The notes beneath the pieces were generated by a model. That model searched no databases. It saw only the letters and a list, made by a program, of their open reading frames with translations, and was not told the origin of the DNA. A stretch of DNA of 64,000 bases from Chitinophaga sp. MM2321 (lineage in GTDB: Bacteria > Bacteroidota > Bacteroidia > Chitinophagales > Chitinophagaceae), in the NCBI RefSeq assembly GCF_964033635.1, contig NZ_OZ035533.1, positions 2,294,001 through 2,358,000 of the forward strand, read 5' to 3'. This document shows, one piece after another, positions 17,957 to 35,123 of this stretch. Position numbers and translations under genes: made by a program. The number at the start of each line of letters is the position of its first letter. The stretch's first letter is position 1.

Positions 17957-18001
17957 TGATTGAAAGTGTACAGATGTGAACCACCTGTACACTTTCAATC
18001 A
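17957..18001. terminator. Bidirectional 17-bp perfect stem-loop between convergent genes
   Basis: Arms at 17957-17973 and 17985-18001 are perfect reverse complements, with an 11-base loop. The element starts three bases after the methyltransferase stop and its right arm covers the last codons and stop of the GT14 gene on the other strand. There is no long T run on either side, so termination may rely on the stem alone. Confidence 0.7.
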
Positions 18002-32338: not shown

Positions 32339-33784
32339 ATGAAAAGTACGCACACCATATTATATATAGTAAAACAGGAAAGCAGTTATTTAAAATTATG
32401 TTGTCTGCTGATACTGGCATTATGCTTCGCCGGTTGTAAAAAAGAACTGGACATCAATAACAATCCCAATCAGGCAGAGGTGCCACCACTCAATGGTCTG
32501 CTGGCGTCAGCTACTTATAATACCTCGTACAATGTATACAAGGTGAGTAATATCACTTCCTACTTTGTGCAGTACCTGGCTTCCCCTAACGCAAACGGGG
32601 CTTCAGATACTTATGAAGCTACCGACTACAGCACCACCTGGCAGTCGCTCTATGACAACATGACCGATATCCACGACCTCATAGAACAGGCCACTGAAGC
32701 AGGTGCTACGCAACATGTAGGCGCCGCGGAAGTGATGATGGCCATCAACCTGGAAATGCTGAACGACCTGTGGGGCACGGTGCCCTATACCCAGGCATTC
32801 AACATCAGTATCCTGCAACCTGGCTATACACCTGATGACAGCGTTTATCTTCAGTGCCTGGCGCTGCTGGATGATGGGATTGCCCAACTGGAAAAGGCGG
32901 GTTCCTTATATGAACTGGACCCCGTGAAAGACCTGCTGCATGGCGGCAAGGTAAGTGCCTGGATAAAAACAGGGTATACCGTAAAAGCCCGGATATTAAA
33001 CCATCTTACCAAAAAAACGACCTACGATGCGACGGCTGTACTGGCAGCTATCGCCAACGCATATACGAGCAATAGTGATGACGCGCAGTTGCAACGTTTT
33101 CAGTCGCTCAGTCCCTGGAACCAGGCTGCGGTTAATAATGCCAATAACTCCCTGGACGGCTGGCTCAGTACCAATTTTGTAGATGCTATGAATGGAAATA
33201 CGTATGGCGTATTTGATCCGCGTTTGCCGATGATTACAGATACTACCAGGTTCGGAGATTATCGGGGTACCCTCAATGGCGCGGGCCGGATAGGATCAGG
33301 TACGGATGCGGAGGAATGCTATCTCTCGCAAGTGGGCTTCTACTCAAAGGGAGGTGCCCCCTTGTTGGTGGCTACTAACGCCGAATGCCGCTTCATCGAG
33401 GCGGAAGCTGCTTTCCGCAATGGTAACAAACCACTTGCTTACCAGGCTTACCTCCGCGGTATCTCCGCCAATATGGACAAGATCGGTGTAGATACTGTGC
33501 TGCGAAATGCCTACATCAACAACCCGGTGGTGGGTGTAGGAGCCGGAAATATTACCCTGGCACTGATCCTGAAAGAAAAGTATGCTGCACAATTCCTGCA
33601 TCCTGATACCTGGAACGATGCACGCCGCTATGACTACCAATACAAGGATTTCCACCTGCCGGTAAATGCACAGCTAACTACTTTTATCAGAAGAGTTGCT
33701 TTTCCCGATACAGAAAAAAGCCGCAACAACGGCAATGTACCGAGTGTAACCCTGACGGACAATATATGGTGGGACCATGATTAA
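32339..33784 (+). CDS. SusD/RagB-family outer membrane lipoprotein
   Basis: A 481-residue surface lipoprotein of the SusD/RagB superfamily, the lid partner of the SusC protein 11 bp upstream. The lipobox LCFAGC places the lipidated Cys near residue 33 after a rather long N-region. The body is TPR-like and helical, with LNDLWGTVPYTQAFN near 139 and FIEAEAAFRNG near 348. It ends NIWWDHD, a usual SusD-type terminus. The last codons form the start of a perfect 51-bp inverted repeat shared with the 3' end of the opposing gene. Confidence 0.93.
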   Translation: MKSTHTILYIVKQESSYLKLCCLLILALCFAGCKKELDINNNPNQAEVPPLNGLLASATYNTSYNVYKVSNITSYFVQYLASPNANGASDTYEATDYSTTWQSLYDNMTDIHDLIEQATEAGATQHVGAAEVMMAINLEMLNDLWGTVPYTQAFNISILQPGYTPDDSVYLQCLALLDDGIAQLEKAGSLYELDPVKDLLHGGKVSAWIKTGYTVKARILNHLTKKTTYDATAVLAAIANAYTSNSDDAQLQRFQSLSPWNQAAVNNANNSLDGWLSTNFVDAMNGNTYGVFDPRLPMITDTTRFGDYRGTLNGAGRIGSGTDAEECYLSQVGFYSKGGAPLLVATNAECRFIEAEAAFRNGNKPLAYQAYLRGISANMDKIGVDTVLRNAYINNPVVGVGAGNITLALILKEKYAAQFLHPDTWNDARRYDYQYKDFHLPVNAQLTTFIRRVAFPDTEKSRNNGNVPSVTLTDNIWWDHD

Positions 33785-33883
33785 AAGATTATAGGGATTA
33801 GCAAGATGGGCGTTTTGTTGTTTTTAGTTTTTAAACAACAAAACGCCCATCTTGCTAATCCCTATAATCTTTTAATCATGGTC
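33773..33883. repeat. Perfect inverted repeat, 51-bp arms, 9-base loop
   Basis: Arms 33773-33823 and 33833-33883 are exact reverse complements over 51 bases, with loop TTAGTTTTT (33824-33832). The left arm contains the last SusD codons and stop; the right arm contains the last YeiH codons and stop on the other strand. It can work as a bidirectional terminator, but its length, perfection and intrusion into both genes are well beyond the other terminators in the window. Confidence 0.97.
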
Positions 33884-35123
33884 TGAACACCAGGTATGCT
33901 ACTATCAGTGTAAAGAATATATTAAACAGCTGCGCGATAATGAATGCCAGTGCGGGTTTACCATTTTCTACTTTAAAGATGTCGGTAAATTTCGTTTCCA
34001 GCCCGATACAGGTGAAGGCGAGTGCAAACCAATACGTTTGCAGTTCCTTTAATGATCCTTTGGAGGCTTCTACTAACGGAGATGGTAGTACGAAAGAGAA
34101 CAGGAGAGAGGCAACAACGAAACCCAATACAAATTTAGGGAAGCGGTCCCATATGGTGCGGAGGGTTGGTTTTTCGTAGCCTGCTTTCTTATTGTTGTAA
34201 GACCAGTACAGGGAGATGGCGAATGCGGCCAGGCCCAGCAACACGTTTTGCGAAAACTTCACGATAGTGGCATACTTCAGGGCTTCTTTGCCCAACAGGG
34301 TACCAGCGGCTACTACTGCGCCGGAGGTATCGATGGTACCGCCCAGCCAGGCGCCCGCTACAGCCGGCGACATGCCCGCCCATATGGCAATGTAGGGCAT
34401 GAACAACATCATGGGGATCGCTACGATCATCACCAGCGAAATAACGTGCGACAGCTTTTTATTATCGCCCTCAATGGCGCCGGAAGTGGCAATAGCCGCT
34501 GATACTCCGCAGATGGATACTGCACTGGAAATCATCATCCGGAACTCATCGTCCAGTCCCAGCATTTTACAAAGCCAGAAGGAAAAATACCATACCGTAA
34601 ATACCACCACTACAGATTGGATAATACCCAGCATACCCGCTTCCATAATATCACCAAAGATGATGTTGGTGCCAAGTAATACCAGCCCTATTTTTATGTA
34701 TAACTCCGTTTGCAACGCCGGTTTAATCCATTCCGGCAGCCCTATTACGTTACTGATAAACAAGCCCAGGATCAGGCTGAATAATACCACTTCGATACCC
34801 AGGTCTTTTATCCCTTTATTGGTAGTGATGATCTGCGCGATCAAAGAAATCAGCACTATGGTCAGCAGACCGGTGAAGAGTGCCATCGGTTTATAGTCAC
34901 CCGCCAGGAAACGCGCCAGCAGCAGGCTGCCGAGCACCCATAAAAATAAGGTTCCCACGCGGAGGAGATTGGTTGTATCTGTTACCTGGCTCCATAAGCT
35001 GCCGGCATCTGTCCAGCCGAATTTGGGCAGGGCCGGCTTTAACCCGGCAAGTACCAGCCCAATGGTAAGGAATGCGATGATCACCGCAATCCAGTCTTCA
35101 TGTAATTTTTTTGATTGTAACAT
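33876..35123 (-). CDS. YeiH-family putative sulfate exporter (UPF0324)
   Basis: A 415-residue membrane protein with about eleven helices and the conserved YeiH features: EVVLFSLILGLFISN near 105, the glycine-rich SICGVSAAIATSGAI near 205, and WLGGTIDTSGAVVAAG near 258. Family members are annotated as putative sulfate exporters, some tied to taurine or sulfur metabolism, but direct evidence is thin. The gene is 39 bp downstream of the SpmA-SpmB-like fusion and probably co-transcribed. Its C-terminal VFRP and stop lie in the long palindrome, so its native 3' end may have been altered. Confidence 0.87.
   Translation of the reverse strand: MLQSKKLHEDWIAVIIAFLTIGLVLAGLKPALPKFGWTDAGSLWSQVTDTTNLLRVGTLFLWVLGSLLLARFLAGDYKPMALFTGLLTIVLISLIAQIITTNKGIKDLGIEVVLFSLILGLFISNVIGLPEWIKPALQTELYIKIGLVLLGTNIIFGDIMEAGMLGIIQSVVVVFTVWYFSFWLCKMLGLDDEFRMMISSAVSICGVSAAIATSGAIEGDNKKLSHVISLVMIVAIPMMLFMPYIAIWAGMSPAVAGAWLGGTIDTSGAVVAAGTLLGKEALKYATIVKFSQNVLLGLAAFAISLYWSYNNKKAGYEKPTLRTIWDRFPKFVLGFVVASLLFSFVLPSPLVEASKGSLKELQTYWFALAFTCIGLETKFTDIFKVENGKPALAFIIAQLFNIFFTLIVAYLVFRP

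Follow-up and report, generated by a model that had tools for sequence, protein, structure and literature searches.

The palindrome with 51-nt arms that lies between the susD-like and yeiH-like genes of Chitinophaga sp. MM2321 is one copy of a dispersed hairpin family and did not arise by copying of a gene end. Probably it is a short, non-autonomous form of a mobile palindromic element, the coding version of which bears a GxxExxY gene, and it would supply both neighboring genes with their stop codons and with a shared 3′ hairpin. Behind this reading stand direct observations: the copy number of the family, its placement at stop codons, relatives free of the element, arms that match within each copy specifically, and GxxExxY genes enclosed by ends of the same type. 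We infer that the family moves.

The palindrome at the susD–yeiH junction

The palindrome was found in a 64 000-nt stretch of MM2321 DNA, the whole of which we call the window. Its left arm (33773..33823, + strand), with the end GACCATGATTAA, and its right arm (33833..33883, − strand) are exact reverse complements, pairing at 51 of 51 positions (100%), and the pairing leaves an A+T-rich loop of 9 nt between them (33824..33832, without strand). Both arms are also placed by a model made from an alignment of the family's arms, the consensus of which is GACCAGGATTAAAGGATTA...GGATGGGTGTTTTGTTGTTT, and as family ends the two score equally under it. The RNA fold of 33750-33910 is predicted at −100.9 kcal/mol (z −16.17), a stability equaled by 0 of 200 shuffles, and the DNA fold of 33773-33883 has a z of −22.56. 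The window contains one further perfect inverted repeat of at least 16 bp (loop up to 20), at 17957-18001 with 17-bp arms. Matches to the Rfam family mir-7, slightly over the gathering score, were returned for both strands at 33786-33870; this is an animal microRNA family, and we rejected the match as a false hit due to the long hairpin.

The susD-like gene (32339..33784, + strand, 481 aa) and the yeiH-like gene (33876..35123, − strand, 415 aa) are open frames with orthologues in relatives, and their names are those given from the sequence alone in the initial annotation. Both are neighbors that lie outside the element except for their last codons. The left arm contains the final three susD codons, GAC CAT GAT, and the stop TAA (33782..33784, + strand), whose offset from the element edge, −12, is one of the two commonest in the family. 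In the right arm are the yeiH stop TGA (33876..33878, − strand, offset −8), the final codon (Pro) and two bases of the penultimate one. Pairing and open frames thus confirm what the initial annotation had described, namely perfect 51-bp arms around a nine-base loop that reach into the last codons of both genes.

The susD–yeiH stretch is matched in 67 of the 79 genus genomes; we examined 30 loci, including that of MM2321, and 12 relatives have both genes in the stretch. The window palindrome sequence is absent from the junction in 12 of these 12. SusD ends in WWDHD here and in WWDR, WWDK, WWDE, WWDQ, WWQL, WWNK and similar sequences in the 12 relatives; YeiH ends in VFRP here and, among the same 12, in VFR (five), VFK (two), VFRQ (one) or otherwise (four). 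The earlier suggestion that, if an arm was copied, one protein had lost its native C-terminus is not borne out, both proteins being altered only in their last residues. Orthologous loci were not seen to share this long stem; the family is dispersed within the MM2321 genome.

What relatives have at this junction varies. The gaps are 58-84 bp in G099, G100, G069 and G091, where they contain stems of 10-17 bp, 657-690 bp in G011, G074 and G044 (that of G011 holds another open frame), and 777 and 909 bp in G090 and G065. G042 (L220) has a different long palindrome, and its yeiH frame reads on to another end. In G066 (L222) and G024 (L241) other arms flank a terminator-like stem; the one in G066 is similar to that of G099 and G100. 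Several palindromes of differing sequence have therefore used the susD–yeiH junction. At a separate locus, L168, MM2321 has a 130-bp element with offsets of 0 and +3, and G011 has a native 60-bp gap with a terminator-like stem. Native sequence has thus been lost on both sides, a loss that plain insertion fails to explain.

A terminator scan of 33600-34100 reported two sites, both outside the element, under a rule that admits loops of 3-8 only and excludes the 9-nt loop. The initial annotation had offered a strong bidirectional terminator or a processed RNA hairpin as one explanation, and part of this stands: both stops lie in the hairpin, and since the stems of the four relatives with short gaps are missing at the MM2321 junction, it could plausibly serve as a 3′ hairpin. 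The hairpin may stop or protect both transcripts, and at this 3′-3′ junction it would have taken over from the lost native terminator.

A dispersed family at gene 3′ ends

The MM2321 genome is one contig of 6,778,472 bases. The element gave 87 matches in it at E ≤ 10, and the 19-base end, with up to three mismatches, gave 79 hits versus 2 for the reversed pattern. The 51-position arm model, based on 20 chosen arms, found at least 150 ends, which is a lower bound for the family; among the ends listed there are 63 head-to-head pairs and 24 single ends. (One sample of the family took 23 of 31 listed copies.) Listed pairs span 102-232 bp, with one exception of 353 and one of 661 bp. Perfect arms of at least 48 bp occur in 21 of the 63, and the window copy is thus not singular. 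An inner terminator-like stem with runs of A and T, alike between copies, was noticed at L066, L068 and L083 in MM2321 and at L387, L388, L400, L401 and L402 in G042.

Placement was judged from gene edges set by a crude longest-open-frame rule, not by a gene caller. By this simple rule 34 of the 63 listed copies are convergent, 25 codirectional, 2 divergent and 2 unassigned. The end of the stop codon falls within −31 to +9 nt of the element edge for 87 of the 95 gene 3′ ends that face a listed copy, and the stop reaches into the element at 66 of the 95. The commonest offsets are −2 (20 times), −12 (19 times) and −1 (10 times). At −2, a T outside the element and GA from the element can form TGA; at −12, GACCAGGATTAA can provide TAA. 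Both edges lie within −40 to +10 of stops in 28 of the 34 convergent copies. Gene starts that face a listed copy are 14-88 nt away in 22 of 29 cases.

The hairpin family is probably mobile. No new insertion of it was observed, and a search for target-site duplication at the 63 listed copies gave a mean best repeat of 1.41 nt versus 1.46 (sd 0.11) for shuffled sequence, with 0 of 63 reaching 4 nt. Within the genus, the arm model, at E ≤ 1e-4 and with stricter filters, matched only MM2321 and G042 among 79 genomes; the 19-base end had any hit in 5 of 59 genomes, with 86 in MM2321 and 9 in G042.

GxxExxY genes between similar ends

The 661-bp copy (C1:6298898-6299558) encodes a GxxExxY protein, in the sole open frame longer than 63 codons found in the 63 listed copies. 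The protein matches TIGR04256 with E 8.5e-36 (122.9 bits, cut-off 35), and the catalytic D...ExK residues D71, E81 and K83 are invariant across 15 aligned sequences; GxxExxY is, by prediction from sequence, a small protein of the PD-(D/E)XK nuclease type. At either end this copy fits the arm model (2.6e-8 and 2.8e-8), but between themselves the two ends are only 79.5% alike over 44 bases.

Similar surroundings were found for related genes elsewhere. Inverted repeats (E < 1e-4) flank 10 of 21 PF13366 loci in relatives (9 of 20 without a double count; L106 and L107 are halves of one broken gene, and L086 is slightly misplaced owing to a short flank), and the same test on controls gave 1 of 29 for yeiH-homologue loci and 0 of 300 for random windows. 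Loci of PF05635, a four-helix-bundle family, have such flanks at a similar rate (11 of 27, again at E < 1e-4). The test took 21 of 22 PF13366 and 27 of 30 PF05635 loci, short flanks being dropped. PF05635 (23S_rRNA_IVP) genes at L127-L156 (e.g. L133, L155, L156) were seen to have inverted, often tandem-like flanking arms, and at L139 (C1:4654293) MM2321 has a broken PF05635 copy amid GATTT-rich sequence.

A further set consists of GxxExxY loci in named records, 80 of 544 confirmed stretches, chosen with two peptide patterns from five close sequences. The sample favors one subfamily and its loci are not independent; 73 were used for repeats and 75 for the end motif. Flanking inverted repeats are present in 36 of 73 at E < 1e-4 and in 55 of 73 at E < 1e-2, and shifted-window controls for these loci gave 0 of 134 and 4 of 134. 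The motif GTCTGAA(C/T)...GATT occurs at the left end in 52 of 75, at the right in 49 and at both in 41, versus 6 of 288 control windows, having been derived from the named loci on which it is counted here. Motif-to-motif length is 459-788 bp. Among 101 motif ends, 56 have the stop of a host gene within 80 nt, and its commonest position is the TGA of GTCTGA (14 times). By eye, many GxxExxY elements (L245-L323) seem to abut, at their right end, the start codon of the gene that follows (AGACAATG, on the other strand). Record titles include Bacteroidetes, Chlorobi, Ignavibacteria, Spirochaetes, Nitrospirae and Parcubacteria; many of these records are metagenome bins, so that single taxonomic placements may be wrong.

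Other genomes provide an independent application of the motif. Among 12 of them, 3 Mucilaginibacter genomes had 25-36 hits versus 0-1 in the control, and the other nine had 0-6 versus 0-2. The sequence TTGTCTGAAYYNNGATT is present in 49 of 296 genomes sampled across the phylum, with very few control hits. An exact TTGTCTGAAYYNNGATT does not occur in MM2321, where the ends read GACC. Ten head-to-head TTGTCTGAAYYNNGATT pairs were fetched, of which seven measure 90-248 bp, several of them flush with stop codons, and three measure 467-514 bp. Two of these three carry GxxExxY (E 1.1e-37 and 4.8e-37), and in the third, of 487 bp, no recognized gene was found. Similar short pairs occur in Mucilaginibacter records, including the complete genome of Mucilaginibacter sp. 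SMC90. In G042, all of 20 sampled copies, which were picked from the listed matches and not at random, start with ACCAGGATT; 15 do so directly after TTGTCTGA, and most run on to GATGGGTGTTATGTTGTTT. The G042 copies thereby bridge the two forms, joining the wide GxxExxY end to the MM2321 core. Some G042 palindromes (e.g. L383, L391, L395) look nested, or extended outward by additional repeat units.

We propose that the GxxExxY protein may mobilize the family, by way of a hairpin or cruciform. It is also conceivable, if doubtful, that the palindromes are or were mobile, that GxxExxY is a passenger, and that another enzyme, of the host or transient, moves them. GxxExxY may be a passenger because PF13366 has a match in just 12 of the 26 genomes examined and none in the other 14, because 18 of the 73 named loci have no flanking repeat at E < 1e-2, and because PF05635 genes are likewise flanked, so that it may be one of several passengers; in addition, MM2321 has one GxxExxY gene for at least 63 paired copies. 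Against this, the only sizeable frame in the listed MM2321 pairs is GxxExxY itself, and the link recurs in half or so of the named loci at the stricter threshold with one common end motif.

Arm equality and comparison with known systems

The initial annotation held that so perfect a match must be recent or maintained. Some process of copying or of pairing does keep the arms equal. Over 42 bases, the arms of the same listed copy have a mean identity of 0.924, versus 0.805 between different copies, so that copies differ from each other by about 20% while their own arms agree. The arm's own partner is its strictly best match for 75 of 126 arms (85 including ties), where about one is expected. In 42 of 60 copies the two arms show the same spacing between their end and the GATGG core (expected 15.0; maximum 26 in 5000 permutations), and the arms often carry mirrored length changes. 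Arm identity has no clear relation to element length, and the arms stay equal even with spacers of 84-132 nt. Among the 20 sampled G042 copies, the outer 30 bases on one side mirror those on the other exactly in 10 and at 97% in one more; mirror symmetry thus continues beyond the core in 11, and in 12 no other match equals the own partner. Because copies differ by that much, recent spread of a single master does not by itself explain the perfect arms. The alternatives are renewal of one arm from the other and selection for pairing.

We favor renewal, in which one arm would be copied from the other through a hairpin intermediate. As the anatomy suggests, the coding element and its short relatives would most likely fold into hairpins or cruciforms that serve the nuclease as substrate, and repair through the hairpin would rewrite one arm from the other. 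Such copying would yield equal arms and also the mirrored length changes and flanks. Insertions that spare genes would survive, favoring 3′ ends, where the ends of the element can act as stops, as the placement partly shows.

That the arms are instead equal through selection on RNA pairing, as a bidirectional terminator, an RNase III substrate or an mRNA-protecting hairpin, after an ancient spread, seems to us rather improbable. The position of copies at gene 3′ ends, the inner terminator-like stems of some copies and the missing native terminators at the susD–yeiH junction would all suit it. Perfect arms of 48-54 bp, however, surpass the 10-17 bp stems of relatives; equality across the long spacers, mirrored length changes and G042 symmetry beyond the core also argue against it. 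The terminator scan reported no site in the element, under the loop rule given above.

That the element is a REPIN mobilized by a transposase of the RAYT (Y1_Tnp) type is very unlikely. The likeness is real: in the REP literature, dispersed inverted doublets can form hairpins mostly near gene 3′ ends (PMC3116915, PMC3733652) and REP ends are able to supply a stop codon (PMC3733652), and an inverted hairpin doublet in many dispersed copies is what we find here (63 listed pairs). But PF01797 has 0 matches at E ≤ 0.001 in MM2321, the same search being positive in 5 of 14 control genomes, and the linked gene here is GxxExxY. The arms are about 50 bp versus 20-40 bp, and their consensus, GACCAGGATTAAAGGATTA..., has no GTAG or CGTC tag as defined in PMC3733652.

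Fold-back template switching that copied one of the susD and yeiH ends onto the other, as the initial annotation had proposed on the strength of perfect arms and two coding ends, has next to no likelihood, since the arm is a dispersed repeat found beside many genes, relatives have gene ends without it, and arms match equally in the 25 codirectional copies (mean 0.920), where no second gene end is involved, and in the 34 convergent ones (0.924). Long hairpins are troublesome in sequencing; that the second arm is an assembly artefact is nonetheless just as implausible, given the single-contig genome, its 63 listed pairs and the similar pairs in other assemblies.

With more reserve than for the window copy itself, we suggest as a possibility that the GxxExxY genes of Bacteroidota and of some further phyla are the hallmark of a mobile element class not described before. 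Its members would be about 460-790 bp long, with ends (TT)GTCTGAA(C/T)(C/T)nnGATT and, after these, GATT units at intervals of 7-9 bases; they would lie exactly at stop codons without target duplication and spread by self-copying hairpins or cruciforms with a small Cas4-like PD-(D/E)XK nuclease, and their gene-less palindromic offspring would become last codons, stops and terminators of the host. This would give a testable role to GxxExxY, a family named solely by its motif and little mentioned in the literature searched; its name appears in a paper on reverse transcriptases. No description of this palindrome family was found in that literature; a survey reports perfect inverted repeats as strongly enriched after bacterial stop codons. 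Long perfect palindromes persist in dozens of copies within one bacterial chromosome, as a mobile-like repeat tied to gene 3′ ends that alters last codons, stop codons and terminators, and with differing copies whose arms agree, the cause of that persistence, copying or selection, is directly testable.

MITEs resemble the family in being short, non-coding and present in many copies with terminal inverted repeats, and in having a coding relative with matching ends in the genome, here the 661-bp GxxExxY copy. They differ in usually, though not universally, having a target-site duplication, and the present element is almost all arm, its arms coevolve within a copy, and the one gene found linked to it is no known transposase. 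The absence of target duplication and of Y1_Tnp sets the family apart from ordinary MITEs and REPINs. The 23S rRNA intervening sequences and PF05635 genes share the arrangement of a small gene between inverted repeats, but the gene is another one and the arms at the listed PF05635 loci are of other kinds, often tandem-like and without the shared end. Intrinsic bidirectional terminators, too, are hairpins between convergent genes; here, in contrast, there are 51 perfect pairs versus 10-17 in four relatives at the same junction, and the palindrome sequence is common to unrelated loci. The palindromes and their longer, GxxExxY-bearing relatives point to a type of mobile element in bacteria about which little is known.
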